Assembly: GCA_027314705.1 (NCBI GenBank)
Contig: DAHVAJ010000109.1
Span: 1 to 45,561 of the forward strand
Direction of reading: 5' to 3'
Origin: Acidimicrobiaceae bacterium
GTDB taxonomy: Bacteria; Actinomycetota; Acidimicrobiia; Acidimicrobiales; RAAP-2
DNA length: 45,561 nucleotides
Part shown: positions 1,414 through 17,469 of the stretch, piece after piece
Layout of the letters: the number at the start of each line of letters is the position of its first letter
Numbering within the stretch: position 1 is the stretch's first letter
Program-made: the position numbers and the translations under genes
Notes under the pieces: generated by a model
The model's database searches: none
What the model saw: only the letters and a program-made list of their open reading frames with translations
Told to the model about the DNA's origin: nothing

Positions 1414-2622
1414 ATGAGCTTCGAGCCGAGCCCCCGGGGCACCGATCTGCGGAACCGAGCCGCCGACTTCCTGGAGTCGGCGGTGATCCCGGCCGAGGCC
1501 GTCTACGAGGAGCAGATGGCGTCCTCGGGCGACCCCCACCACCATCCCCCGGTCATCGAGGACCTGAAGGCCGAGGCCCGCCGCCGCGGTCTGTGGAACC
1601 TGTTCCTGCCCCACGCGACCCCGTGGACCCCGGACCCGGTGCCCAACCTCGACTACGCCTACATCGCCGAGCTCGCCGGTCGGAGCCACCTCGCCTCGGA
1701 GGCCATGAACTGCTCGGCACCCGACACCGGCAACATGGAGGTGCTCGCCCTCTTCGGCTCCGACCGGCAGAAGGAGGAGTGGCTGGTCCCCTTGCTCGAA
1801 GGCGAGATCCGTTCGGCCTTCGCCATGACCGAGCCGGCAGTGGCCTCGTCGGACGCCACCAACATCCAGCTCTCCATCGACCGTGACGGCGAGGAGTACG
1901 TCCTCAACGGGCGCAAGTGGTGGATCTCCGGGGCGGCCTCGGAGCGGTGCCGGGTCTTCATCGTCATGGGCAAGACCGACCCGGAGGCCCCCCGCCACCA
2001 GCAGCAGTCGATGATCCTGGTGCCCCGGGACACCCCGGGACTGACCATCGTCCGGAACCTCCCCGTGTTCGGGTACGAGGACCGCGAGGGCCACTGCGAG
2101 CTCACCTTCGAGGACGTACGGGTGCCGGCGTCCAATCTCATCGCCGAGGAGGGCATGGGCTTCGCCATCGCTCAGGCCCGCCTCGGCCCCGGTCGCATCC
2201 ACCACTGCATGCGCTGCATCGGCCAGGCCGAGCGGGCCCTCGAGCTGATGTGCCGTCGGGTCACCGGCCGGGTGGCGTTCGGCAGGCCCCTCGCCGACCA
2301 GGGTGTGATCCAGGAGTGGATCGCCGACTCCCGCATCGAGATCGAGCAGGCCCGCCTCCTCACCCTCAAGGCGGCCCACCTCATGGACACCGTCGGGCAC
2401 AAGGGTGCGGCCGTGGAGATCTCGGCCATCAAGGTGGTGGCCCCGAACATGGCCCTGCGGGTCGTCGACCGGGCCATCCAGGCCCACGGCGGTGGCGGGG
2501 TGTCGGACGACTTCCCGCTGGCCCGCATGTACGCCGGCCTGCGGACCCTGCGCTTCGCCGACGGTCCCGACGAGGTCCACCGGCGGCAGCTGGCCCGGCG
2601 CGAGCTCGGCAAGTACGCCTGA
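1414..2622 (+). CDS. Acyl-CoA dehydrogenase (ACAD10/11-like)
   Basis: This flavoprotein of 402 residues introduces the alpha-beta double bond into acyl-CoA in beta-oxidation-type pathways. Family marks are [15 protein letters not shown] (flavin/substrate region), [34 protein letters not shown], the C-terminal helical stretch [15 protein letters not shown], and [17 protein letters not shown]. The end [15 protein letters not shown] is typical of the ACAD10/11 branch, which favours long or hydroxylated acyl-CoA. The ATG at 1414 is chosen because GAGGAG lies 8 bases upstream; the longer open frame upstream has no family similarity. A possible -35 TTGACT is at 1346-1351. Substrate cannot be read from sequence. 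Confidence 0.92.
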
Positions 2623-2992
2623 GGGCGGGCCTCGAGGGAGCTCGGGGAGGGCCGGTGGCCCGGTGAACCGGCGGCACGTCCACGGCGGTCGTCCCGACGC
2701 CCGGCGAGCGGTCCGGAAGGATCGGCTGGACCCTCGCCCCGCGCCACCTCCCGCACCCCTGCCGGCGGCGCCAGCACGACGGGCACCAGCGGCCGGCCGT
2801 CGGCGACGGCGCCTGCTTCCACCCCACCGACCGACCCGTGTGACTCCTGGCCGACCTGCACCGGGCCGGCCGGTGCGCCGACGAGGTGCGCGCCGTCGCC
2901 ACCACCCCCGGGCGCGTCGGCCCCTGCTCCTGCGGCGTCGGCCGGACGGCCGAGGGCTGGCCCGGCGGACGACCGCCGGCCGGGGGGTCGGT
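2623..2992. other. 370-base gap between convergent genes, no supported gene
   Basis: This GC-rich spacer lies between the 3' ends of the acyl-CoA dehydrogenase and the nitronate monooxygenase-like gene. One plus-strand stretch (about 2840-2960) reads LLADLHRAGRCADEVRAV...GPCSCGV after an in-frame stop. That could be the tail of a decayed gene, but no start or family match supports it. I see no convincing terminator with a T-run. Confidence 0.4.
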
Positions 2993-3934
2993 TCAGGAGG
3001 CCGGGTAGCGGGCGGCCAGCTCGGCCAGGACCGCCTCGCACCCCTCCGCACAGGTGCGGATGATCTCGGCCACCGGCCGGCTGGCCGTGATGCGCCCGGC
3101 CACTTGGCCTCCGAGGGCGATGCCCGAGTCGAGGTCGCCCCCGAAGTAGAGGTCGGTCACGTTGCCGAACGCGGCCATGGCGTTGCGGTCATGGTCGAAC
3201 TCGAGGGCCTCGGTGCGGGCCGTGCGCAGGGCCCGGAGGGCCGGGGAGGTGTGGCTGTTGAGGAAGACGGTGCCGGTCTCGGCGGCGTCCACGATGGCGT
3301 GTTTCCAGTTGGGGTGGACCGGTGACTCGGCCGACGAGACCATGGCCGTCCCGAGCTGGACGCCCTCGGCGCCCAGCGCCAAGGCGGCGGCCATGGTGGG
3401 GCCGTCGAGGAACCCGCCGGCGGCGATGACGGGCACGTCGACGGCACGGGTGACCGAGGGGAGGAGGACCATGCTCGCCACCGGCCGGGGGTTCTTGAAC
3501 CCGCCCCCCTCGCCCCCCTCCACGATGAGGCCGTCGACCCCGGCGGCCACGGCCTTCTCGGCTGCCCGCAGCGTAGGCACCACGTGGAAGACGGTCAGGC
3601 CGGCGTCCTTCAGTTGGGCGGTGTACGTCGTCGGGCTCCCGGCCGAGGTGGTGACGAACCGCACCCCCTGGGCGATCACGAACTCGACGATGACCGTGGG
3701 ATCGGCCACGAAGGCCTGGGCGATGTTGACCCCGAAGGGCCGTTCGGTGAGGTCCTTCATCTTGGCGATCTCGTCCCGCACCACATCGAGCTCGCCCGAG
3801 GAGGTCTCGATGATGCCCATGGCCCCGGCGTTCGAGACGGCCGAAGCCAGGGCCGAGCGGGCGATCCAGCCCATCGGAGCTTGCACGATCGGGATCTCGA
3901 CGCCGAGGAGCTCGGTGACGCGGTTGGTCAGCAC
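2993..3934 (-). CDS. Nitronate monooxygenase / 2-nitropropane dioxygenase-family flavoprotein
   Basis: This 313-residue TIM-barrel FMN protein begins VLTNRVTELLGVEIPIVQAPMGWIA, the classic NPD-family N-terminus with the QAPM loop. It continues with GVNIAQAF, VDGLIVEGGEGGGFKNPRP (family GGE/H motif region), VPVIAAGGFLDG and GAEGVQLGTAMVSSAES, the phosphate-binding end of FMN barrels. Members oxidise alkyl nitronates, and related proteins act as enoyl reductases; sequence alone does not decide. The GTG at 3934 is chosen because family similarity starts there. CATGAT lies 6 bases upstream and could be a leaderless -10. The open frame continues far upstream antisense to xylA, but only as shadow. 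Confidence 0.88.
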   Translation of the reverse strand: MLTNRVTELLGVEIPIVQAPMGWIARSALASAVSNAGAMGIIETSSGELDVVRDEIAKMKDLTERPFGVNIAQAFVADPTVIVEFVIAQGVRFVTTSAGSPTTYTAQLKDAGLTVFHVVPTLRAAEKAVAAGVDGLIVEGGEGGGFKNPRPVASMVLLPSVTRAVDVPVIAAGGFLDGPTMAAALALGAEGVQLGTAMVSSAESPVHPNWKHAIVDAAETGTVFLNSHTSPALRALRTARTEALEFDHDRNAMAAFGNVTDLYFGGDLDSGIALGGQVAGRITASRPVAEIIRTCAEGCEAVLAELAARYPAS

Positions 3935-4207
3935 GGGGGCATCATGGCACGGCTCGCGGTGGCGGCCCCGAGCCGTCGCCGGGGCCCGCTGACGGCGGAC
4001 GCGGCCACGCCGCCCGCCCGGCCTCCCGACCGCCCGCGGCGAGGGACTCCGGGAGGTCGGCCACGGCCACCGCGCCGGCCGCGTCCGCCGAGACCGCACG
4101 CTCCCCGCCGGGCCCGCGGACTCCGGGCCCGACCGGGCCGGCGTGGCCCGACCTCCCGGTGCCGGCCTGCGCGAAGATGCCACCGTGGTCGATGACGCAA
4201 GGATCGG

Positions 4208-5563
4208 GTGAGCGTTCCCGAGGGGGACGTCCCCGAGTTCTTCCCCGGAGTCGGCCCGGTCCGCTACGCCGGCCCGGACAGCGACGACCCGCTCGCCTTC
4301 CGCTGGTACGACGCCGACCGGGTGGTGGCCGGCAAGCCGATGGCCGAGCACCTCCGGATGGCCGTCTGCTACTGGCACTCGTTCGTCTGGGCCGGCGCTG
4401 ACGTCTTCGGAGCGGGCACGTTCGACCGGCCGTGGACCGCCCCGGGGCGCGATCCGATGGAGGCGGCCGCGCAGAAGATGGCGGCCGCCTTCGAGTTCAT
4501 GGCCAAGCTCGGCGCCCCGTACTTCTGCTTCCACGACCGGGACCTCGCCCCGCCGGGCGCCACCTTCGCCGAGTCCTGCGCACGGCTCGACGCCCTGGTC
4601 GACCAGGCCCTCGGGCACATGGAGCGCACCGGGGTGCGGCTCCTGTGGGGGACGGCCAACCTCTTCTCCCACCCCCGCTTCGCGGCCGGGGCAGCCACCA
4701 GCCCGGACCCCGAGGTCTTCGCCCACGCCGCCGCCCAGGTCGCCCACGTCCTCGAGGCCACCCACCGGATGGGCGGTGCCAACTACGTGCTGTGGGGCGG
4801 GCGGGAAGGGTACGAGACGCTCCTCAACACCGACCTCCGGCGCGAGGAGGCCCAGCTGGCCCGCTTCCTCCACCTGGTCGTCGAGCACAAGTACCGGATC
4901 GGGTTCGAAGGGGCGATCCTGGTCGAGCCCAAGCCGGCCGAGCCGGCCAAGCACCAGTACGACCACGACGTCGCCACGGTGGCCGGCTTCCTCGTCCGGC
5001 ACGGGCTCGACGGCGAGGTCCGGCTCAATCTGGAGGCCAACCACGCCACGCTCGCCGGCCACAGCTTCCACCACGAGGTGGCCACGGCCGCCGCCCTCGG
5101 TGTGCTCGGATCGATCGACGCCAACCGCGGCGACGCGCAGAACGGGTGGGACACCGATCAGTTCCCGAACTCGGTGGAGGAGTGCACGCTCGTCCTCTAC
5201 GAGGTCCTCCGGGCCGGGGGGTTCACCACCGGGGGGGTGAACTTCGACGCCAGGCTGCGCCGGCAGTCGGTGGACCGTGACGACCTCGTCCACGCCCACG
5301 TCGGAGCCATGGACACGTTGGCCCGGGCCCTGCTGGCCGCCGTCTCCCTGCTCGAGTCGGGGGAGCTCGAGGCGTTCCGGCACGACCGGTACGCGGCCTG
5401 GGACGGGCCGCTCGGCGCCGCCATCCTCGACGGCGGCCGCAGCCTGGCCGATCTCCACCGACTCGTCCTCGACGACGACCTCGACCCGCGGCCCGCCTCG
5501 GGCCGCCAGGAGCTGCTCGAGCGGGTCGTCAACCGCCACGTCGAGCAGGCCCGCTGGCCGTGA
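4208..5563 (+). CDS. xylA: Xylose isomerase
   Basis: The 451-residue protein interconverts D-xylose and D-xylulose in the cytoplasm. Length and sequence match the long class II isomerases (E. coli type, about 440 residues). Catalytic and metal-binding segments are intact: [10 protein letters not shown] (His and Asp of the proton shuttle), [52 protein letters not shown] and [13 protein letters not shown]. The GTG at 4208 has AAGGA about 5 bases upstream. It is the first gene of an operon: its TGA overlaps the GTG of the GH3 gene by 4 bases, and xylB follows. The last codons (PLA in another frame) lie in a 54-base duplication. Confidence 0.97.
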
Positions 5564-5640
5564 CCGACGAGGCGGGCGCCTTCGCCGTGACCGACGAGGC
5601 GGGCCCGCTGGCCGTGACCGACGAGGCGGGCGCCTTCGCC
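5548..5640 (+). repeat. 54-base duplication of the xylA/GH3 junction (three 27-base units)
   Basis: The 39-base segment 5548-5586 recurs exactly at 5602-5640. Within it, three 27-base units beginning GTGACCGACGAGGCGGGC start at 5560, 5587 and 5614. Units 1 and 3 are identical; unit 2 ends CCGCTGGCC instead of GCCTTCGCC. Each unit starts with a possible GTG start codon. In the GH3 frame the repeats encode TDEAG(AF/PL)AV three times. Confidence 0.95.
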
Positions 5641-7827
5641 GCGGCCGCGGTCCGGGTGGCGGCCGGTGGCGACCACCGTGCCGAGGCGGCGGCCCTCGTC
5701 GGACGCATGACCACCGAGGAGAAGCTCTGGTGCCTCGACGGCGACACCGAGTTCTGGCCGGGCCTGGTCGACCTGGTGGGCGGGGGGTACCACCGCCACC
5801 CGTGGCCGGCCGCCGCCGTGCCCCGATTCGGCATCCCGGGCATCCGCTTCGCCGACGGTCCCCGCGGGTGCGTGATCGGACCGGCCACCTGCTTCCCGGT
5901 GTCGATGGCGCGGGGCGCGACCTTCGATCCGGCGCTCGAGGAGCGGATCGGCGCCGCCATCGGGACCGAGCTGCGGGCGATGGGAGCCACCTACACGGGG
6001 GCGGTGTGCATGAACCTCCTCCGGCACCCGGGATGGGGGAGGGCCCAGGAGACCTACGGGGAGGATCCCCACCACGTGGGGGAGATGGCTGCGGCCCTGA
6101 CCCGGGGCCTCCAGCGTCACGTGCTGGCCTGCATGAAGCACTTCGCCTGCAACAGCATGGAGGAGCCGCGCTTCCGCATCGACGTCCGGGTGGGCGAGCG
6201 GGCCCTCCACGAGGTCTACCTCCCGCACTTCCGCCGGGTGGCCGACGAAGGTGTGGCCTCGGTGATGTCGGCGTACAACGCCGTCAACGGCACCTGGTGC
6301 GGGGAGCACCGTGTCCTCCTCACCGACGTGCTGCGGGCCGAGTGGGGATGGGACGGGTTCGTCACCTCCGACTTCGTCGCCGGCGTGCACGACGCCGTCC
6401 GCTCGGTCGAGGCCGGTCTCGAGATCGAGATGCCCTTCCGACAGGTGCGGGCCGCCGGCCTACCGGCGGCGCTGCTCTCCGGCGAGCTGCACCAGGCCGA
6501 CGTGGACGCCCGGGTGGTGGCCACCGTGGCCACGCTGCTGCGCTTCGCCCACGTCTTCGGTCCCGGTCCCGGCGCCGAGGTCCTGGCCGCACCGGCCCAC
6601 CGAGCTCTGGCCCGTGAGGCCGCCGTGACCTCGACCGTCCTCCTCCGCAACGCCGGGGGCCTGCTGCCGGTCGGCGAGGTGGACGGCCGCCTGGCCGTGC
6701 TCGGCCGCCTGGCCGCCGTACCCAACCTGGGCGACGGCGGGTCGAGCGACGTCTACCCGCCCGAAGTGGTCACGCTGCTCGACGGGCTGCGGGAGGGTTT
6801 CCCGAGGGCGGAGGTCGTGCACGCCACCGACGACGCGAGGGTGGCGGCCGGCGCCGACCTCGCCGTGGTCGTGGTGGGCTGCACGCGGGCCGACGAGGGC
6901 GAGTTCGTCGACGTCGGGACGTCCGCGTCGATGGCGACGCGCTTCCCATCCCCGCCCGACCCGTCGGCACCGCCGGGCCCGGTGCCGGCGTCGACCGCAC
7001 CCGAGGGATGGACACCGGCCCCGGCGGCCGGTCCGTCCCCGAACCCGGACGGCGGCGCCTTCGCCCCGGGAGGGGACCGGCGCTCGCTCCGGCTGTCCGA
7101 GGGTGACGAGGTCCTGGTGCGGGCCGTCGCCTCCGTCTGCCCGCGGACGGTGGCCGTGGTGATGGGGGGCTCGGCCGTGGTGGCGCCGTGGCTCGAGGAG
7201 GTGCCGGCCACCCTGCTGGTGTGGTACCCGGGGATGGAGGGCGGCCGGGCCCTGGCCGATCTCCTGACCGGTGCCGCCGAGCCCGGCGGCCGGCTCCCGT
7301 TCGCCCTGCCGGCGGACGAGGCCGACCTCGTGGCATTCGACCCCGATGCCGACACCGCCGACTACGACCTCTTCCACGGCCAGTGGAAGCTCGACCGCGA
7401 CGGGACGGCGCCGGCGCGGCCGTTCGGCTTCGGGCTGGGGTACACGACCTGGGTGGTGGACCCGGCCTCGGTCCAGGTCGCCGTCCCGGTCGGCGACGGC
7501 GTCGGCACCGTCGAGGCGGAGGTGACCAACGGGGGCGACCGCCCCGGGGCGACCGTGCTGTTCCTCTTCGGGGGACGTCCCGACTCGGCGGTCGACCGGC
7601 CCGCCCGCCGGCTGGTCGGCTTCCGTCGGGTGACGCTGCCGGCCGGGGGTCGCGCCGTGGTGCGCCTGCCGTTCGACCTGGCCACGCTCGACGTCCGCCG
7701 GGACGGTGGCTGGTGGCGCGAGCCGGGGCCCTACCGGCTCGAGGTGGCCTGGGACGCCGCCTCGACCGTGGCCACCCTGGACGTCGACGTCCGCGGCGGC
7801 CCGGCGGGCCGGACCCGGACGGGGTAG
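5560..7827 (+). CDS. Glycoside hydrolase family 3, probable beta-xylosidase/beta-glucosidase
   Basis: The 755-residue enzyme has a GH3 N-terminal barrel ([48 protein letters not shown]) with the nucleophile Asp in [12 protein letters not shown]3 C-terminal domain ([39 protein letters not shown]) and a fibronectin-like tail ([14 protein letters not shown]) follow. No signal peptide is visible, so it probably acts on imported oligosaccharides or glycosides. Its place between xylA and xylB argues for beta-xylosidase releasing D-xylose. The first residues are a threefold repeat unlike any GH3 N-terminus, so translation may begin at 5560, 5587 or 5614. It overlaps xylA and ends 8 bases before xylB. 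Confidence 0.9.
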
Positions 7828-7835
7828 GGGCCGGC

Positions 7836-9281
7836 GTGCCGCTCGTGCTCGGAGCCGACAGCTCGACCCAGTCCACCAAGGTCGAGGTGCGTGACGCCGA
7901 CGACGGGACGCTGGTGGCCGCCGGTTCTGCCCCCCACCCCCCGGTGGGTCCGCCCCGGAGCGAGCAGGACCCGGAGGCGTGGTGGCTGGCGCTGGCCGAG
8001 GCCGTCGGCGCCGCGCTGGGCCCCTCCGGCGCTCGGACCGACGACGTGGCCGCGGTGTCGGTGGCCGGCCAACAGCACGGCATGGTCCTCCTCGGCCGCG
8101 GCGATCGGGTCCTCCGTCCGGCCAAGCTGTGGAACGACACCGAGTCGGCGCCGCAGGCGACGGCGCTCGTCGAGGCGCTCGGTCCGGCCGAGTGGGCCCG
8201 GCGCACCGGGTCGGTGCCGGTGGCCGCCTTCACCGTGACCAAGCTGGCCTGGGTGGCCGCCCACCAACCCGACGTGCTGGCTGCCACCCGTCGGGTCCTG
8301 TTGCCGCACGACTGGCTGACCCTCCGTCTCGGCGGGCGGGCGGTGACCGACCGCGGCGACGCCTCGGGCACCGGGTACTACTCACCGGCCGACGGGCGGT
8401 GGCTGCCCGAGCTGCTGGACACCGTGGTGGGCGCCGGACCGTGGGCCCACCGGCTCCCGGAGGTGCTCGGGCCGACCGAGGCGGCCGGCGGGGTGTCCCC
8501 CGAGGCGGTCGCCACCCTGGGGCTGGCCCCGGGGACGGTGGTCGGACCGGGCACGGGCGACAACATGGCCGCGGCCCTGGCCCTGGCCCTCGATGCCGGT
8601 CGGCCGTGCCTCTCCCTCGGGACCTCCGGGACCGTCTACCTGGTGTCCGACCGGCCCACGGCGGACCCGTCGGGGGCCGTGGCCGGCTTCGCATCGGCCG
8701 ACGGGCGGTTCCTCCCGCTCGTGTGCACACTCAACGCCACCCGTGTGACCGACGCGGTGGCCCGCCTCCTGGGGGTGGACGCCGCCGGGCTCGACGCCCT
8801 CGCCCTCGCCGGATCGTCCGGGGCCGGCGGGGTGGTCCTCGTCCCGTACTTCGACGGCGAGCGCACGCCCGACCGTCCCACCGCCACCGGGTCGGTGCGC
8901 GGACTGCGAGGGGACGTGGCCCGTGAGGACCTGGCCCGGGCCGCCGTCGAAGGGGTGGTCTGCGGACTGCTCGACGCCCTCGACGCCCTGGCCTCGACGA
9001 CACCCATCGCCCCCGGTCCGCTCGTCCTGCTGGGTGGCGGGGCCCGCTCTGCGGCGTACCGCCGGGTGGTGGCCGATCTCTCCGGTCGCCCCCTCGTCCT
9101 GCCCGCCGTGGGCGAGGCCGTGGCCACCGGCGCCTGCGTCCAGGCCGCCGCCACCCTCCACGCCCGCCCGCCGGCGGACATCCAGCGGGCCTGGGGGCTC
9201 GGCGGTGGGGTGACGGTCGAGCCCGGACCGGGCGTCGACCGCGCCGCCGTCCGCGCCGCCTACGCCGCCGCTCGCGGCTGA
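7836..9281 (+). CDS. xylB: Xylulokinase
   Basis: The 481-residue FGGY-family kinase phosphorylates D-xylulose to D-xylulose 5-phosphate, feeding the pentose phosphate pathway. Motifs include the N-terminal phosphate loop GADSSTQSTKVEV, AGQQHGMVLL (xylulokinase-specific QQHG), KLWNDTES, VGPGTGDNMAAALAL, SLGTSGTVYLVS and the C-terminal LLGGGARSAAYRRVVADL. The GTG at 7836 follows GTAGGGG; the longer upstream frame is a shadow of the GH3 gene. It is the last gene of the xylA-GH3-xylB operon. No sugar transporter or XylR-type regulator is encoded beside it. Confidence 0.95.
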   Translation: MPLVLGADSSTQSTKVEVRDADDGTLVAAGSAPHPPVGPPRSEQDPEAWWLALAEAVGAALGPSGARTDDVAAVSVAGQQHGMVLLGRGDRVLRPAKLWNDTESAPQATALVEALGPAEWARRTGSVPVAAFTVTKLAWVAAHQPDVLAATRRVLLPHDWLTLRLGGRAVTDRGDASGTGYYSPADGRWLPELLDTVVGAGPWAHRLPEVLGPTEAAGGVSPEAVATLGLAPGTVVGPGTGDNMAAALALALDAGRPCLSLGTSGTVYLVSDRPTADPSGAVAGFASADGRFLPLVCTLNATRVTDAVARLLGVDAAGLDALALAGSSGAGGVVLVPYFDGERTPDRPTATGSVRGLRGDVAREDLARAAVEGVVCGLLDALDALASTTPIAPGPLVLLGGGARSAAYRRVVADLSGRPLVLPAVGEAVATGACVQAAATLHARPPADIQRAWGLGGGVTVEPGPGVDRAAVRAAYAAARG

Positions 9282-11124: not shown

Positions 11125-11130
11125 TAGGGT
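11125..11130 (+). promoter_or_regulatory. -10 box TAGGGT of the cobalamin operon
   Basis: TAGGGT lies just upstream of the riboswitch core and would place transcript initiation near 11137. No clear -35 hexamer is visible. It is the same hexamer as in front of glycerate kinase and the methyltransferase gene. Confidence 0.45.
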
Positions 11131-11136
11131 CGGTCC

Positions 11137-11250
11137 CCTCACCACACGCAGCTGGTCGGGGAAGCCGGTCGAATTCCGGCACTGGTCCGCAACCGTAGGT
11201 GGCGCCCGCACGGGGGTCACGAGTCGGGATACCGCCCTGCTGCGCCGTTG
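11137..11250 (+). ncRNA. Cobalamin (B12) riboswitch aptamer
   Basis: The conserved core is unmistakable: GGGGAAGCCGGTCGAATTCC, then GGCACTGGTCCGCAACCGTA, and the B12 box GAGTCGGGATACCGCCC at 11221-11237. These match the receptor core and junction elements of cobalamin riboswitches (GGGAAnCnGGTG...CCGCAACCGT...AGTCnGGAnACC). Outer boundaries are approximate. It precedes a five-gene B12 uptake operon, so adenosylcobalamin or another cobalamin should repress that operon. Confidence 0.95.
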
Positions 11251-11293
11251 AGTCCTGACCGTCGAGAACGCGGCACGGGCTCGGTCGCCGGGC

Positions 11294-11333
11294 GGAGACT
11301 CGCCGCAACGGTCTCCGGGGTCGTCGCCCCGGA
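11294..11333 (+). promoter_or_regulatory. Likely riboswitch expression platform with two exclusive hairpins
   Basis: TCCGGGG (11314-11320) can pair with CCCCGGA (11327-11333) around TCGTCG. GGAGAC (11294-11299) can instead pair with GTCTCC (11311-11316). The two helices share 11314-11316, so they cannot both form fully. The 3' hairpin contains the GGA of the GGAAAG ribosome-binding sequence of the first gene, which suggests control of translation initiation. Inferred from base pairing only. Confidence 0.55.
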
Positions 11334-11348
11334 AAGCGAGCCGAGCCC

Positions 11349-12956
11349 ATGTCCCTCACCCGCCTCCTGGCGTCGGCAGCCCTCGGGGCGTGCCTGGTCG
11401 CCACGGTCGACGCGGCACCGTCGGCCGCGGCCACGCCGGCCCCGCACACCACCGCCGCGCCGGGTCTTCCCGGTTCGGCGGCCCTGTCCGCCCGCGCCGG
11501 CGCCCTGTGGCTGGCCGGCCAGTTCGGCCCCGGCGGCGCCATCCCGTCGGCCACCACCCCCGGGCAGCCCGACGACTCGGCCACGGCCAACGCCGTGCTG
11601 GCCCTGGCATCGGCGGGGACGGACACGCCGGTGGCCCAGCAGGGGCTGGCCTACCTGGCCGCCCACGTGAACGACTACGTCCAGGTCGGCGGCGTGGACC
11701 AGCCCGGCGCCCTGGCCCTGCTCGTGCTCGACGCCCACGCCCTCGGGGTCGACCCGCGCACCTTCGGTGGGACGGACCTGGTGGCCCGGCTCGAGGCCAC
11801 CCAGTTGACGGCCGGTTCGGACGCCGGTCTGTTCGGCACGTCGGATCCCACCTACGACGGCGCCTACCGCCAGGGGCTCTCCCTCGCCGCGCTGGCCGCG
11901 GCCGGGGTGACCACGGGGGCCACGGTGACGGCCGCCGAGGCGTGGCTGACCGCCCAGCAGTGTCCGGGCGGCGGGTGGACGAGCTACCTGACCGCGTCCA
12001 ACCCCTGCAACGGGGCGCCCGCCAACTACGCGGGCCCGGACACCAACTCGACCGCCCTGGCCGTCCTGGGCCTGGCCGCCGAGGGCGCCGCGCCGTCCGC
12101 CCTCACCGCCGCCCTCGGGTTCCTACGGACCAACCAGAACCCCGACGGTGGGTGGGGCTACTACCCGACGAACACCAGCGACCCGGACTCGACCGGCCTG
12201 GTGGCCCAGGCCCTCGCCGCCCTCGGCGTCCCGGCCGTCGATCCGAGCCTGGTCCAACCGGGGGGGACGCCGGTCACCTCGCTCGCCTCGTTCCAGGTCC
12301 TGTCCGGACCCGGCAGCGGCGCCTTCACGTTCCCCGGGGTGCCCGGTCCCGACCTGCTCGCCACCTACCAGGCCCTGCCCGGGCTGGCCGACGTCGCCCT
12401 GCCCTTCCGGTCGACGGCGGTGACGGTCTCGGTGCCGCCGGGCGGGGCCGCCCCCGGGGCGCCCGCCACGTACACGGCCACCGTGGGCCTGGTCGGGTCG
12501 CCGGCCGGCGGGCCGACCGGCACCGTGACCTTCACGGAGGGCTCCTCGGAACTGTGCGCCGCGCCGGTCGTCGGGGGGACGTCCTCGTGTTCCGGCGCGG
12601 CCACGCCCGTCGGCGCCGCGCCGGTGCTGGCCGTCTTCACCGGCGGTCCGTCGTTGGGGATCTCGACGGCGGCGGCCGCGTCGGGCCCCGGTGGCGCCTA
12701 CTGGGTGACGTCGGCCGACGGCGGGGTCTTCGCCTACGGCCCGGCCGGCTTCTTCGGCTCGGCCGGCGGGCAGACCCTCGACCGGCCGGTGGTGGGCATG
12801 GCCGCCACCCCCGACGGGCACGGCTACTGGCTGGTGGCCAGTGACGGCGGGATCTTCGCCTACGGCTCGGCCCGCTTCGCCGGGGGACCGCTGTCCGAGG
12901 CGGGCGGCGCGCCGGTGGTGGGGATGGCCGGCGAGTCGGCCGCGGCGGCCGGGTGA
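11349..12956 (+). CDS. Secreted alpha/alpha-barrel (intrinsic-factor alpha-domain-like) protein, probable cobalamin binder
   Basis: The 535-residue exported protein has a signal peptide at about 1-27 (cleavage near VDAAPSAAA). At about 45-350 comes an all-helical domain of the prenyltransferase/squalene-cyclase alpha6/alpha6 fold, with repeated helix starts such as [34 protein letters not shown] and [14 protein letters not shown] plus the [11 protein letters not shown] turn. An Ig-like domain at about 360-440 contains a Cys pair. Two 'YW(V/L)xxxDGGxFAYG' repeats form the tail. The same fold makes the alpha domain of animal intrinsic factor and transcobalamin. Position directly behind the B12 riboswitch and coupling to an ECF importer support cobalamin capture. 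No anchor is visible. It overlaps the next gene by 4 bases. Confidence 0.72.
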
Positions 12957-13879
12957 CCGCACCCCGACCGAGCCGCCGGCCCCGGGGGCGGCACTTGGCC
13001 GGGCTGACCTGCTGTTCGGCCGCGGGTGCGGCGGCGCTGGCCCTGGGTGGGCCCCTCGTCCTGCGCTCGCTGGCCGACGTCGCCGGGGCGGCCACCGACG
13101 TGGGCGTGGCCTTCGTCGTCGACTTCGGCGGTACCGTCGGCACCGTCAGCGGTTGCGTCACCGTACCGACCGACGACAGCGGGTACGAGGCGCTGGCCGC
13201 CTTCGTGGCCCAGGAGCACCTGGCCGCCCCCACCTACGACTCGAGCGGCCTGCTCTGCTCCATCGGGGGCGTGCCGGCGTCGGGATGCGGGCAGACGGTG
13301 GCCAACGGGTACCTCTACTGGTCCTACTTCACGGCGTCGGCGTCCCAGCCGTCCTGGACCTACGCCACCACCGGCGCGTTCGCCCCGGTGGCCACCGGCG
13401 ACGTCGAGGGGTGGCGGTTCCAGGACCCGGGCACCGGGAGGGCCGGCGACCCCCCGCCCCGTTCGGCGCCCGACTACGCCGCCCTCTGCCCGCCGGCCGC
13501 GGTGGCACCGGGGCCGGCGCCCACCACGGCGCCGGCGGCGGCTCCGGCCATCGTGCCCGGGGCCGCGGCCACCACGGCCCCACCGCCCGCCGGCCCGTCG
13601 TCGGGGCCGGCCGCGGTACCGACTCCGTCGGGCACCGGGACCGGGACCACCGCCACCACGGCCACCACCGCGCCGACGGCGTCCAGCGGCGGCTCCCCGA
13701 CCACGGCGCCGTCCGGACGGAGACGTCCCGTCTCGCCCGGACTGGCCGCCCTCCGGGCGACGTCGGCCGCGGCGTCCTCCGGCCCCGGGCCGGTACCCCT
13801 GGTCGTCGGCGGCGCCCTCGTGGTGGGCCTGGCCGTCGCGGCCGGCGTGCGCTGGCGACGCCGGCCGCCGGCCCGGTGA
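12953..13879 (+). CDS. Membrane-anchored DUF4430 (transcobalamin beta-domain-like) protein
   Basis: The 308-residue protein has an N-terminal export signal, then a compact domain at about 48-155: [13 protein letters not shown], Cys-containing [15 protein letters not shown], and the aromatic end [18 protein letters not shown] followed by [16 protein letters not shown]. This matches DUF4430, the family that includes the C-terminal beta domain of intrinsic factor and transcobalamin. A long Ala/Pro/Thr linker follows (about 170-270), then a C-terminal membrane helix [18 protein letters not shown] with a basic RRRPPAR end. I infer a tethered outer-face partner of the preceding barrel protein that hands cobalamin to the ECF importer. 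Its GTG overlaps the previous stop. Confidence 0.78.
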
Positions 13880-15036
13880 GGTGGCCCTGGGCCGCGACCG
13901 CCGGCCGCCGTGGACTGCACCCGGCGGCCTGGTGGCTGTGGGCGGCGTGCCTGGCCGGAGCGGCCACCCGGACGACCAACCCGCTCCTCCTCCTCCTGGT
14001 GGCGGCCGTGGCCGCCTTCGTGGTGGCGGCCCGCCGCACCGACGCCCCGTGGTCGCGCTCGCTCGTGGTGTTCGTGCGCGTGGGCGCCGTGGTCATCGTC
14101 CTCCGCGTGGTCCTCGAGGTCCTGTTCGGCAACCGCCTCCCGGGCCACGTCCTGGTCACGCTGCCCCACGTGCCCCTGCCCTCGTGGGCCCGCGGCGTGA
14201 GCGTCGGCGGCCCGGTGACGGCCGAAGCCGTGCTCCAGGCGGCCGTCGAGGGTCTCCGGCTGGCCGTGGTGCTGGTCTGCTTCGGCGCGGCCAACTCCCT
14301 GGCCAGCCCCTACCGGCTGCTGCGCTGCCTGCCTCCCGTCCTCTACGAGGCCGGGGTGGCGGTCACCGTGACGCTGGCCTTCGCCCCCGAGCTGGTGGTG
14401 GCCGTGGGGGAGGTCCGGGCCGCCCGGCGGCTCCGGGGACGGCCGGTGCGGGGGGTGGCCGGCCTGCGGGGGATGGCCGTCCCCGTCCTCGAGACCGCCC
14501 TCGACCGCTCGCTCCAGCTCGCGGCGTCGATGGACGCCCGCGGCTACGGCCGTCGAGCGTCGCTGGCACCGGCCGCACGCCGGGCGGCGTCGGGGGGCAC
14601 GGCGCTCGGACTGCTCTTGGTGGTGGCCGGCGTCTACGGACTGCTCGTGCCCGGCTCCCTCCCGGCCGGCGGCGTGCCCTTCGTCGTCCTCGGGGCGGGG
14701 CTGGTCGCCGGCGGACTCGCCGCCCGTGGCCGACGCACCCTGCGGACGCGGTACCGGCCCGACCCCTGGGGGGCGCCCGAGTGGCTGGTGGCCGGCTCGG
14801 GGGTGGCCGCCCTCGGGGCGCTGGTGGTGGCCTCGGTGGTCGGGACCCCCGGCCTCACCTTCGCGGCCTATCCCCTCACGGCCCCGGCCCTGCCGCTGCT
14901 CCCGACCGTCGGGCTGCTCGCCGGCCTCCTGCCCGCGGTGGTCGCCCCGGTGGAGCGGCGCCCGGACCGCTCCGTCCCGACCGACCGGTCCCGCGGCGAG
15001 CCGGCCGCCGCCCGGAGCGACGGGAGGGCGGCGTGA
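13876..15036 (+). CDS. ecfT: ECF transporter T component (EcfT/CbiQ family)
   Basis: The 386-residue membrane protein has N-terminal helices, a conserved cytoplasmic coupling region and further helices. ALDRSLQLAASMDARGYGRR carries the second Ala-Arg-Gly coupling motif (ARG in MDARGYG), and VRAARRLRGRP the first basic motif that contacts the ATPases. EcfT links S component and ATPases. The start GTG overlaps the DUF4430 stop (GTGA), and its own stop overlaps the ATPase start, so translation is coupled. It is longer than minimal EcfT proteins (about 260 residues) because of an additional hydrophobic C-terminal region (SGVAALGALVVASVVG and beyond). Confidence 0.9.
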   Translation: MRWPWAATAGRRGLHPAAWWLWAACLAGAATRTTNPLLLLLVAAVAAFVVAARRTDAPWSRSLVVFVRVGAVVIVLRVVLEVLFGNRLPGHVLVTLPHVPLPSWARGVSVGGPVTAEAVLQAAVEGLRLAVVLVCFGAANSLASPYRLLRCLPPVLYEAGVAVTVTLAFAPELVVAVGEVRAARRLRGRPVRGVAGLRGMAVPVLETALDRSLQLAASMDARGYGRRASLAPAARRAASGGTALGLLLVVAGVYGLLVPGSLPAGGVPFVVLGAGLVAGGLAARGRRTLRTRYRPDPWGAPEWLVAGSGVAALGALVVASVVGTPGLTFAAYPLTAPALPLLPTVGLLAGLLPAVVAPVERRPDRSVPTDRSRGEPAAARSDGRAA

Positions 15037-16661
15037 TCCGCTTCGACCACGTCAGCTTCACCTACGACGGTGCCGAGGTTCCGACCCTCGACCGTGTCGA
15101 CCTCGTCGTGGGGGAGGGGGAGCTGTGTGTGGTCGTGGGTCCGACCGGCTCCGGCAAGACGACGCTGCTCCGGGCGGTCAACGGGCTCGTCCCGCACTTC
15201 ACCGGCGGCCGGCTGGCCGGCGAGGTGCGCGTGGCCGGACGTTCGACCCGGGACGTCCCGCCCCGTGAGCTGGCCGACGTGGTCGGCATGGTCGGCCAGG
15301 ACCCGGCCGCCTCCTTCGTCACCGACGTGGTCGAGGATGAGCTGGCCTACACCATGGAGAACCTGGGCCTCGCCCCCGACGTGATGCGCAGGCGGGTCGA
15401 GGACACCCTGGACCTCCTCGGCCTCCACGACCTGCGCGACCGCCCGCTCCGGTCGCTCTCGGGAGGCCAGCAGCAACGGGTGGCCATCGGCGCCGTCCTC
15501 ACCGCCTCACCCGGGGTCCTCGTGCTCGACGAGCCCACCTCGGCCCTCGACCCGGCCGCGGCCGAGGAGGTGCTGGCCTCCCTCACCCGACTCGTCCACG
15601 ACCTCGGGCTCACCGTGCTGCTGGCCGAGCACCGGCTCGAGCGGGTGCTCCCGTTCGCCGACACGGTCGTCCTCGTGCCCGGACGGGGCGGGCCGCTGGA
15701 GATCGGCCCGGCCGACGAGATCATGGTCGGTTCGCCGGTGGCACCGCCCCTCGTGGAGCTGGGGCGTCTGGCCGGTTGGCGGCCGCTCCCGCTGTCGGTG
15801 CGGGACGCCCGCCGTGTGGCCGGGCCGTTGCGCGACCGCCTGGCCGGGGCGGTTCCCCGACCGCCGGTGACGGTGCCCGGGGCGGGGGGGGGACCGGCCG
15901 GCCGGCTCGAGCGGGTCACGGTGCGCTTCGGTGCGGTCCGTGCCCTCGAGGACGTCGACGTGGCCGTCGCGGCCGGGGAGGTGGTGGCCGTCATGGGGCG
16001 CAACGGCTCGGGGAAGTCGACCCTCCTCGGTCAGCTCGCCGGGGTACGCCGACCCGACGCCGGCCGCGTCCTGGTCGGCGGGGTCGACCCCGCCGGGCTG
16101 ACCCCGCGGGAGCTCGTGGCCCGGGTGGGCCTCGTCCCCCAGGACGCCGGTGTGCTCCTCTACGGCGAGTCCGTGGCCGACGAGTGCGCGGCGGCCGACC
16201 ACGACACCGGGCTGGTTCCGGGCACGTCGGCCGGCGTGCTGGACCGCCTGGTGCCCGGCCTGCCGCCCGGCCGCCACCCCCGTGACCTCTCCGAGGGCCA
16301 GCGCCTGGCCCTCGCCCTCGCCGTGGTGCTGGCGCCGGCGCCACCGCTGGTGCTCCTCGACGAGCCGACCCGGGGGCTCGACTACCGGGCCAAGGAGCGT
16401 CTGGTCGGCCAGCTGGCCGGGCTGGCCGCCGCCGGGCACGCCGTCGTCGTGGCCACCCACGACGTCGAGCTGGTGGCGCGGGTGGCCACCCGGACGGTGG
16501 TGCTGGCCGAGGGCGAGGTGGTGGCCGACGGCCCCGCCCGAGACGTCATCTGCCACTCGCCGATCTTCGCCCCCCAGGTGGCCAAGGTGCTGGCCCCGGA
16601 GCCGTGGCTGACGGTCGACGAGGTGCGCGGTGCGCTGGCCGGGAGCGGGACCCGTGGCTGA
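15033..16661 (+). CDS. ecfA: ECF transporter ATPase, two ABC domains in one chain
   Basis: The 542-residue protein holds two complete nucleotide-binding domains. Domain 1 has Walker A GPTGSGKTT (36-44), Q-loop MVGQDPAASF, signature LSGGQQQR and Walker B VLVLDEPTSALD. Domain 2 has Walker A GRNGSGKST, VPQDAGVLLY, signature LSEGQRLAL (SGG changed to SEG) and Walker B LVLLDEPTRGLD, then THDVEL. It powers the ECF importer by forming an EcfA-EcfA' pair within one polypeptide. The second signature lacks the usual second Gly, which may make the two ATP sites unequal. It overlaps ecfT by 4 bases and the S component gene by 8. Confidence 0.93.
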   Translation: MIRFDHVSFTYDGAEVPTLDRVDLVVGEGELCVVVGPTGSGKTTLLRAVNGLVPHFTGGRLAGEVRVAGRSTRDVPPRELADVVGMVGQDPAASFVTDVVEDELAYTMENLGLAPDVMRRRVEDTLDLLGLHDLRDRPLRSLSGGQQQRVAIGAVLTASPGVLVLDEPTSALDPAAAEEVLASLTRLVHDLGLTVLLAEHRLERVLPFADTVVLVPGRGGPLEIGPADEIMVGSPVAPPLVELGRLAGWRPLPLSVRDARRVAGPLRDRLAGAVPRPPVTVPGAGGGPAGRLERVTVRFGAVRALEDVDVAVAAGEVVAVMGRNGSGKSTLLGQLAGVRRPDAGRVLVGGVDPAGLTPRELVARVGLVPQDAGVLLYGESVADECAAADHDTGLVPGTSAGVLDRLVPGLPPGRHPRDLSEGQRLALALAVVLAPAPPLVLLDEPTRGLDYRAKERLVGQLAGLAAAGHAVVVATHDVELVARVATRTVVLAEGEVVADGPARDVICHSPIFAPQVAKVLAPEPWLTVDEVRGALAGSGTRG

Positions 16662-17469
16662 ACGGCCCGGCACCCGGGCCCTGCCGCTCGGGCGGCGCGG
16701 CGGCACCCTCGTCGGGCTGACCTCGCTGGTCGGGGCGGCCGCCTTCCTGTGGCCCTTCGTGCTCCACGGCCAGGCGCCGACGGCCCAGGCCCACGCGGCC
16801 GACGCCCCCTGGGTCTTCCTCGCCGTGCTGCCCCTGCTCCTGGCCGTGGTCCTGGCCGAGCTGGGCGAAGGCACCCTCGACGCCAAGGGCGTCGCCCTGC
16901 TCGGGATCCTGGCCGCCTGCGGGGCCGCCCTTCGGGTCCCGAGCCCCGGCGTGGCCGGCTTCGAGCCCGTCTTCTTCCTGCTCATCCCCTCGGGCCGGGT
17001 CCTCGGCCGGGGGTTCGGCTTCGTGCTCGGGGCGGTGACCCTGGCCGCCTCGGCCCTGGTCACGGGCGGGGTCGGCCCGTGGTTGCCCTTCCAGATGTTC
17101 GGAGCGGCCTGGATGGGCTTCGGTGCCGGCTGCCTCCCGGCCGCCCGGGGCCGGACCGAGCTCGGGATGCTGGCCGGCTACGCCGCCGTCTCGGGCATCG
17201 CCTACGGGACCCTCCTCAACCTGTGGTTCTGGCCGTTCGGGGCGGGCACCACGACGACCTTCTCCTACGTGGCGGGGGCCGGTCTGGTCCACAACCTCCA
17301 CAGCTTCTTCCTGTTCGACCTCACCACCTCGCTGGGCTTCGACATCCCCCGGGCCCTCACCAACGCCGGCCTCGTCCTGCTGCTGGGCCGGCCGGTCCTG
17401 GCCGCCCTGCGCCGGGCCACCCGGCGGGCCGCCTTCGACGTCCCGGTGGTCCTGGTCCCCGAGCCCTGA
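16654..17469 (+). CDS. ECF transporter substrate-binding (S) component, probable cobalamin-specific
   Basis: The 271-residue integral membrane protein has about six helices, among them VGLTSLVGAAAFLWPFVL, WVFLAVLPLLLAVVLAEL, GFGFVLGAVTLAASALVTGG and GYAAVSGIAYGTLLNLWFWP. The stretch GPWLPFQMFGAAWMG is characteristic of S components encoded with ECF modules for cobalamin (CblS-type, from family recall). Specificity for B12 is inferred mainly from the riboswitch and the two transcobalamin-like neighbours. The GTG start sits inside the end of ecfA. It is the last gene of the operon. The open frame has an upstream ATG, but it lies deep within ecfA. Confidence 0.85.
   Translation: MAERPGTRALPLGRRGGTLVGLTSLVGAAAFLWPFVLHGQAPTAQAHAADAPWVFLAVLPLLLAVVLAELGEGTLDAKGVALLGILAACGAALRVPSPGVAGFEPVFFLLIPSGRVLGRGFGFVLGAVTLAASALVTGGVGPWLPFQMFGAAWMGFGAGCLPAARGRTELGMLAGYAAVSGIAYGTLLNLWFWPFGAGTTTTFSYVAGAGLVHNLHSFFLFDLTTSLGFDIPRALTNAGLVLLLGRPVLAALRRATRRAAFDVPVVLVPEP

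Follow-up and report, generated by a model that had tools for sequence, protein, structure and literature searches.

What catches the ligand of an energy-coupling factor (ECF) importer when genes for two surface proteins stand ahead of it in the same operon? The question is raised by positions 11,125 to 17,469 of the window, by which we mean the whole 45,561-nucleotide stretch of contig DAHVAJ010000109.1 from an Acidimicrobiaceae bacterium (assembly GCA_027314705.1). The S component is usually regarded as the sole substrate catcher of such importers. Here a cobalamin riboswitch precedes genes for a barrel protein, a beta-grasp protein and the ECF subunits, and the locus is probably an operon for the uptake of B12 (corrinoid) in which capture is shared by two chains and import is left to the ECF module. 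A role in B12 capture is largely supported by the comparisons that follow.

The operon and its riboswitch

Both parts of the layout that the preliminary description had drawn from the sequence, a cobalamin riboswitch in front and five genes joined by overlaps of 4–8 bases, were borne out. The aptamer lies on the forward strand at 11159–11233 (Rfam RF00174; cmscan 33.3 bits against a gathering score of 31.5) and was also located, at 11158–11233, by a core-motif scan that returned 12 matches in 762,229 bases and none in reversed sequences. It is the sole cobalamin riboswitch reported in the host genome, an assembly of 131 contigs and 93% completeness for which 150 of 179 first-look candidates were scored. 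The genes that follow on the same strand encode the barrel protein (535 residues; 11349–12956), the beta-grasp protein (308 residues; 12953–13879), the CbiQ-like coupling subunit EcfT (386 residues; 13876–15036), an EcfA-EcfA' double ATPase (542 residues; 15033–16661) and the S component (271 residues; 16654–17469), the presumed membrane-embedded substrate binder. Successive frames overlap by 4, 4, 4 and 8 bases, and third-codon G+C is 0.93–0.97 throughout. The start given for the S component is a chosen GTG, the longest frame beginning at 16630.

The three downstream genes also proved to be the importer that had been proposed, with EcfT near its cut-off and the S component recognised by context. 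EcfT scores 22.8 bits against CbiQ, slightly below the cut-off of 25, and has eight membrane-like segments. The double ATPase shows two ABC_tran stretches (E 6.3e-50), exceeds the cut-off of TIGR01166 cbiO (227.5 against 211.8 bits) and carries Walker A, signature and Walker B motifs that are all paired. Neither Pfam nor NCBIfam recognises the S component, and its profile gave neither a convincing chain among solved structures nor a relative among 71 pattern-matching stretches of viral contigs; its identity comes from membrane segments, position and relatives. One weak relative, fused to a barrel in locus L098, exceeds the cut-off of DUF6580 and narrowly misses that of the ECF riboflavin S component. 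The window thus encodes together an EcfT (just below cut-off), two ATPases and an S component (by context), the arrangement of a dedicated (group I) ECF importer. Relatives of EcfT, EcfAA' and S occur together in all 20 loci of a first comparison set, taken from 20 of 44 genomes with a SCO2322-like match, so the grouping is not due to chance. In two further loci (L102, 3034–6060, and L105, 2605–5625, both on the reverse strand) EcfT, both EcfA domains and S share a single frame of about 1,000 residues, apparently a one-chain ECF importer; a beta-grasp gene adjoins each, and no barrel was found nearby.

The two surface proteins

That the first protein is a secreted barrel is supported by its match to Pfam SQHop_cyclase_C (34.7 bits, cut-off 26.1), which gives it the sequence pattern of an alpha/alpha barrel, and by a single hydrophobic segment at its N-terminus, from which hydropathy predicts export. 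The barrel profile covers 11487–12227 and is followed by an Ig-like stretch at about 12438–12680 (Big_3_5, 31.3 bits, below the cut-off of 35.5); by eye, two propeller-like repeats make up the C-terminus (12693–12953). The protein matches the NCBI family NF053823 (SCO2321_fam) in two stretches at 174.8 bits, short of the cut-off of 300. Profile comparison joins the barrel family to six barrels from genuine DUF4430 operons at 99.9%. A match to the eukaryotic cobalamin-binding family, for which the preliminary description had proposed a search, did not materialise: none of 16 barrels scanned, at thresholds up to E 1 or 0.1, matched the Pfam family that we take to be PF01122.

The second protein had been described as a tethered DUF4430 protein, and this stands in part. 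Hydrophobic segments at residues 19–37 and 281–299, the latter encoded at about 13793–13849, suggest from hydropathy that the protein is tethered to the membrane, with the beta-grasp domain at about 13088–13450. Direct membership of DUF4430 fails: Pfam PF14478 has no match in this protein or in the host genome, and the model touches just one of 22 relatives, at E 0.014. The kinship is nevertheless visible between profiles, since hhalign aligns the beta-grasp family with 25 DUF4430 domains from the same phylum at 81% (E 1.2e-5, 91 columns), whereas the S component and barrel controls stay below 1%. The DUF4430 set in turn finds RUMGNA_00854 first in the PDB (E 0.0096) and the C-terminal domain of human transcobalamin-1 second (E 0.1); the beta-grasp profile itself found nothing real among solved structures, its one match being an antibody chain at E 0.7. 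According to PMC4350170, a domain of this type forms the end of transcobalamins. PMC1949818 assigns a central part in the ligand binding of transcobalamin-type domains to an aromatic residue before strand 3. In our family an aromatic residue stands within the 12 positions before an invariant cysteine in 20 of 22 members (6 of 22 in the one control stretch), and it may be the equivalent residue. The closest NCBI family is NF040672 (SCO2322_fam), matched in two stretches at 58.6 bits, under the cut-off of 85.

Recurrence and rearrangement across the phylum

We surveyed 296 genomes of the phylum, counting profile matches at E 0.001 or better. SCO2322-like proteins occur in 44 genomes, DUF4430 in 51, the S component in 107 and the barrel in 107. 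Of the S matches, 58 reach E 1e-30 or better, and the 49 weaker ones may serve other substrates. The parts keep company: an S match accompanies a DUF-type match of either kind in 89 of 92 genomes (33.3 expected) and a barrel match in 80 of 107 (38.7 expected), kinship being ignored in both expectations and all 107 barrel and 107 S genomes being kept. All three parts are found in 72 of the 296 genomes, so that the design, which the preliminary description had thought unusual, is not rare in this actinobacterial survey and recurs across the phylum.

Proximity points the same way. At least 74 of the 107 S genomes have a DUF-type gene on the same strand no more than 7 kb from S, and an S gene lies equally near and on the same strand in 38 of the 44 genomes with a SCO2322-like match; the 7-kb counts are lower bounds, second hits of genomes already listed being omitted. 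Barrels lie within 8 kb of S in 64 of 107 genomes, by a hand-filtered list that leaves aside low-scoring partial matches (about 23–45 bits) resembling terpene cyclases. Eleven of 16 second-set loci chosen for DUF4430 near S contain a barrel, which always follows S or shares its frame. A contig scan for named relatives, using a two-row fusion alignment and narrow patterns, yielded two loci; Glycomyces sp. L485 (L106) is a named relative with the gene order of the window, its beta-grasp and barrel frames overlapping by 4 bases. Across 13 loci the distances of barrel and DUF-type protein correlate at 0.875 (0.65 as a partial correlation given S; permutation p 0.0002), which lends the pairing weak support only, because operon partners tend to evolve together. 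Alignment A1 was built without four permuted domains (L032–L035), A2 without the permuted barrel pieces and the second L032 protein, and A6 from 25 of 30 DUF4430 loci. Frames of about 1,500–1,900 residues with several DUF4430 domains were seen on contigs of S relatives in three genomes (G027, G054 and G142).

The riboswitch recurs with these genes. Among the 20 first-set loci, all examined with Rfam at gathering score and by core motif, it adjoins the operon start or the first capture gene in 16: nine at the Rfam gathering score, three by core motif only and four below threshold (E 0.001–0.02), the last from a lower-threshold scan of four of the eight loci without a hit, all four of which were positive (L033, L035, L038 and L042 lay outside it). 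Among nine of the 20 second-set loci scanned with Rfam, six have one, scoring up to 112.6 bits. In 15 S genomes the barrel lies elsewhere or on another contig, and of six separate barrel loci that we checked, five have a cobalamin riboswitch immediately ahead of the barrel gene. Distance from the importer thus does not take the barrel out of the B12 regulon. Rfam identifies it at L108, L109 and L112; at L110 and L111 the core motif was found and Rfam at gathering score was negative, and the core-motif scan, the one method applied at L123, found no match there. Among barrel loci without an S gene, neither method found a riboswitch at L114 or L115, nor did the motif scan at L113. Glycine riboswitches (RF00504) lie near the separate barrel genes of relatives of the window at L108, L109 and L111. 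Another locus, L046, packs four cobalamin riboswitches and two barrel-plus-beta-grasp pairs into 17 kb, and at L090 (8379–10988, reverse strand) and L091 (3949–6624, forward strand) a large secreted protein, propeller-like by eye, stands between a cobalamin riboswitch and a DUF4430 gene.

Fusions tie the same parts together in two ways. Barrel and beta-grasp domain share one frame, barrel first, in four genomes of two families (L043, 758 residues; L042, 942 residues with two beta-grasp domains; L116, 815 residues; L112, 758 residues). A riboswitch at gathering score accompanies the fusions at L043 and L112; none reaches that score at L042, and the motif scan, used without Rfam at L116, found none there. 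The frames of L042 (4454–7282) and L043 (5108–7384), both on the forward strand, run on into cell-wall-binding CWB2 domains, and a barrel in L044 (8275–9840, reverse strand) runs on into SLH domains. In five genomes of two other families S and barrel form one uninterrupted frame (L097, 1917–3953, reverse strand, 678 residues; L098, 11242–12945, forward strand, 567 residues; L128, L129 and L130, 518–528 residues), which ties the barrel directly to the importer. In L097 and L098 a hydrophobic segment separates S from the barrel and a second one closes the chain, a layout that would suit an exported, anchored barrel; the first segment could be a membrane helix or a cleaved signal, and the chain may be processed between its two parts.

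Where barrel and beta-grasp genes are separate, their frames may still share bases (8 in L040, 4 in L123), with the pair divergent or apart from the importer genes. At L040 the pair (6088–8263, forward strand) diverges from the importer genes (2288–5803, reverse strand), and the riboswitch lies on the side of the pair. In the nearest relatives of the window the barrel gene lies at another locus, and the beta-grasp gene adjoins the importer. Streptomyces-type genomes, whose likeness to Streptomyces we infer from scores over the SCO2322 cut-off, have the halves of both domains in reversed order. In L032 the barrel profile is matched from 85 to 236 and then from 1 to 102, and the beta-grasp profile from 13 to 120 and then from 1 to 68. 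Relative to the window, the beta-grasp domain is permuted in L032–L035 and the barrel in L032–L034, L124 and L125 (near a contig end). In L124 the permuted barrel accompanies an unpermuted beta-grasp domain, so the two permutations are separate events. Permutation of domain halves in family members also accounts for the two-piece matches of the window proteins to the NCBI families.

Outside the operon, the flanks are a glycerate kinase gene upstream and, downstream on the opposite strand, a gene of the metallo-beta-lactamase fold; at gathering score Rfam finds one more element in the window, a tRNA. Three matches to B12-binding domains were found in the host genome, which has no CbiC match at 93% completeness and a single FecCD match at 25.9 bits, just under the cut-off of 26.5. 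The host probably uses B12 made by others, without a clear BtuC, as far as an incomplete assembly allows.

Proposed capture mechanism, rival readings and known systems

From the gene order, riboswitch, family links, fusions, co-occurrence and riboswitches at separate barrels, all of them directly observed, we infer that the ligand is B12, that it is contacted by the two proteins simultaneously and that it is handed over to the S component. Scarcity of B12 would let the riboswitch permit expression of the operon; the barrel protein would go to the cell surface or wall, and the beta-grasp protein would be held at the membrane through its C-terminal segment. A single corrinoid would be gripped between the two chains in the way that transcobalamin and intrinsic factor grip theirs; the tethered beta-grasp lid would then offer it to S, with import powered by the EcfT-EcfAA' motor. 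Judged by sequence, it is on balance likely that both surface proteins clamp one B12. Finely poised, to our mind, is the fuller account in which a lid held at the membrane and a barrel that is free, bound to the wall or linked to S form a true two-chain clamp, closing around a corrinoid and passing it to S; this clamp would have evolved by fission, by fusion (of barrel with lid or of S with barrel) and by circular permutation of both halves, with the animal carriers as one fused outcome.

Several observations weigh against the proposed two-chain capture of B12. A DUF-type match without a barrel match occurs in 17 of the 107 S genomes, among them G062 (L035), a single contig listed as 100% complete, and ten more have neither by these profiles; the barrel is therefore not always needed. 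Of the loci fetched from these ten genomes, three break off at contig ends and two have broken or partial S frames, and one of the ten (G008) does have a beta-grasp gene by our own profile. At L106 neither Rfam nor the motif scan found a cobalamin riboswitch. In sequence, squalene cyclases are nearer to the barrel than intrinsic factor is; the latter is matched by the barrel profile at E 0.06 only, over 41 positions. The place of the cyclases' central aspartate is Asp in 8 of 15 family rows at the first of two repeats aligned to squalene-hopene cyclase, and in the window barrel alone at the second, and a DXDD string occurs elsewhere in 4 of the 15 rows.

The genomes without a barrel match, together with the wall-binding CWB2 and SLH parts on some barrels, favour a B12 importer in which the tethered beta-grasp protein alone does the catching and the barrel docks, anchors or holds a second ligand. 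We consider this unlikely, since it leaves aside the barrel–DUF fusions of four genomes, the overlapping frames of pairs divergent or apart from the importer genes (L040 and L123) and the cobalamin riboswitches kept at separate barrels. Two-piece capture might instead be directed at a precursor such as cobinamide, or at another cobamide. Cobalamin riboswitches control salvage genes too. ECF-CbrT of Lactobacillus, moreover, takes cobinamide as well (PMC5997447). The present evidence does not tell B12 from its precursors, and we rate a ligand other than B12 itself as less probable still, a distinctly minor prospect.

The other two alternatives are very improbable. An ATPase above the cbiO cut-off and a CbiQ-like EcfT would suit a CbiMNQO-type cobalt importer with accessory surface proteins; this is disfavoured, as the S component has no CbiM-type match and, with CbiC not found in the genome, no corrin synthesis is visible for the cobalt to feed. 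Equally remote is the possibility that the barrel works in an unrelated pathway, as an enzyme like the terpene or squalene cyclases; its best Pfam and PDB matches, both squalene-hopene cyclases, and the aspartate noted above at one repeat would speak for it. A grouping with cyclases that carry active-site acids, which the preliminary description had itself held against a clamp, is half present: cyclases are nearest by sequence, but the full DXDD motif is found in 0 of 15 rows at either repeat, its place being taken by strings like DTNST, DVDTT or NANST. The export segment, the constant company of importer genes and cobalamin riboswitches and the fusion to the S component also disfavour an enzyme, and we return to the two-chain B12 clamp as the preferred account.

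A barrel and DUF4430-type clamp feeding an ECF importer had been put forward as an unusual design. The principle itself has been in print since 2007, when Burroughs, Balaji, Iyer and Aravind (PMC1796856) proposed that toroid and transcobalamin-like domains, encoded beside CbiO and CbiQ genes, scavenge B12 in Gram-positives where synthesis is lacking, and that animals acquired their B12 carriers from there. Here, though, the halves are separate genes. In the titles and the beginnings of abstracts listed by our searches of open-licence literature we found no description of the split form, the separate riboswitches, the S–barrel fusions or the circular permutations. If the reading is true, SCO2321 and SCO2322, which NCBI names by number only and whose library entries give no function, would gain one and would be connected with how the animal B12 carriers arose. 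It would also point to ECF importers that are assisted by surface capture proteins, and the two-chain form makes the clamp idea testable by mixing separately purified halves.

Among known systems, ECF-CbrT of Lactobacillus delbrueckii (PMC5997447) is likewise an ECF-type B12 importer with an S component and shares the ECF module; the passages of its description that we consulted mention no surface capture protein, and the S profile of the window matches no solved chain convincingly. Both window proteins match the SCO2321 and SCO2322 families below the curated cut-offs, and the SCO2322 members above cut-off that we examined are circularly permuted, unlike the window protein. The SLBB proteins of Burroughs and colleagues, as far as the text consulted describes them, likewise combine a beta-grasp domain with an alpha/alpha toroid outside the cell, in predicted operons with a CbiO-like ATPase and a CbiQ-like membrane protein. 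They come from low-GC Gram-positives, planctomycetes and euryarchaea and have fused toroids or a second SLBB protein, whereas the branch of the window escapes the DUF4430 model and has its halves in separate genes, some at separate loci with their own riboswitches and some permuted. Animal transcobalamin, intrinsic factor and haptocorrin are extracellular too and place the barrel first and the DUF4430-type domain second, as the natural bacterial fusions do. The window system differs from them in consisting of two chains, in lacking a match to the eukaryotic Pfam family and in presumably feeding an ECF importer rather than endocytosis.

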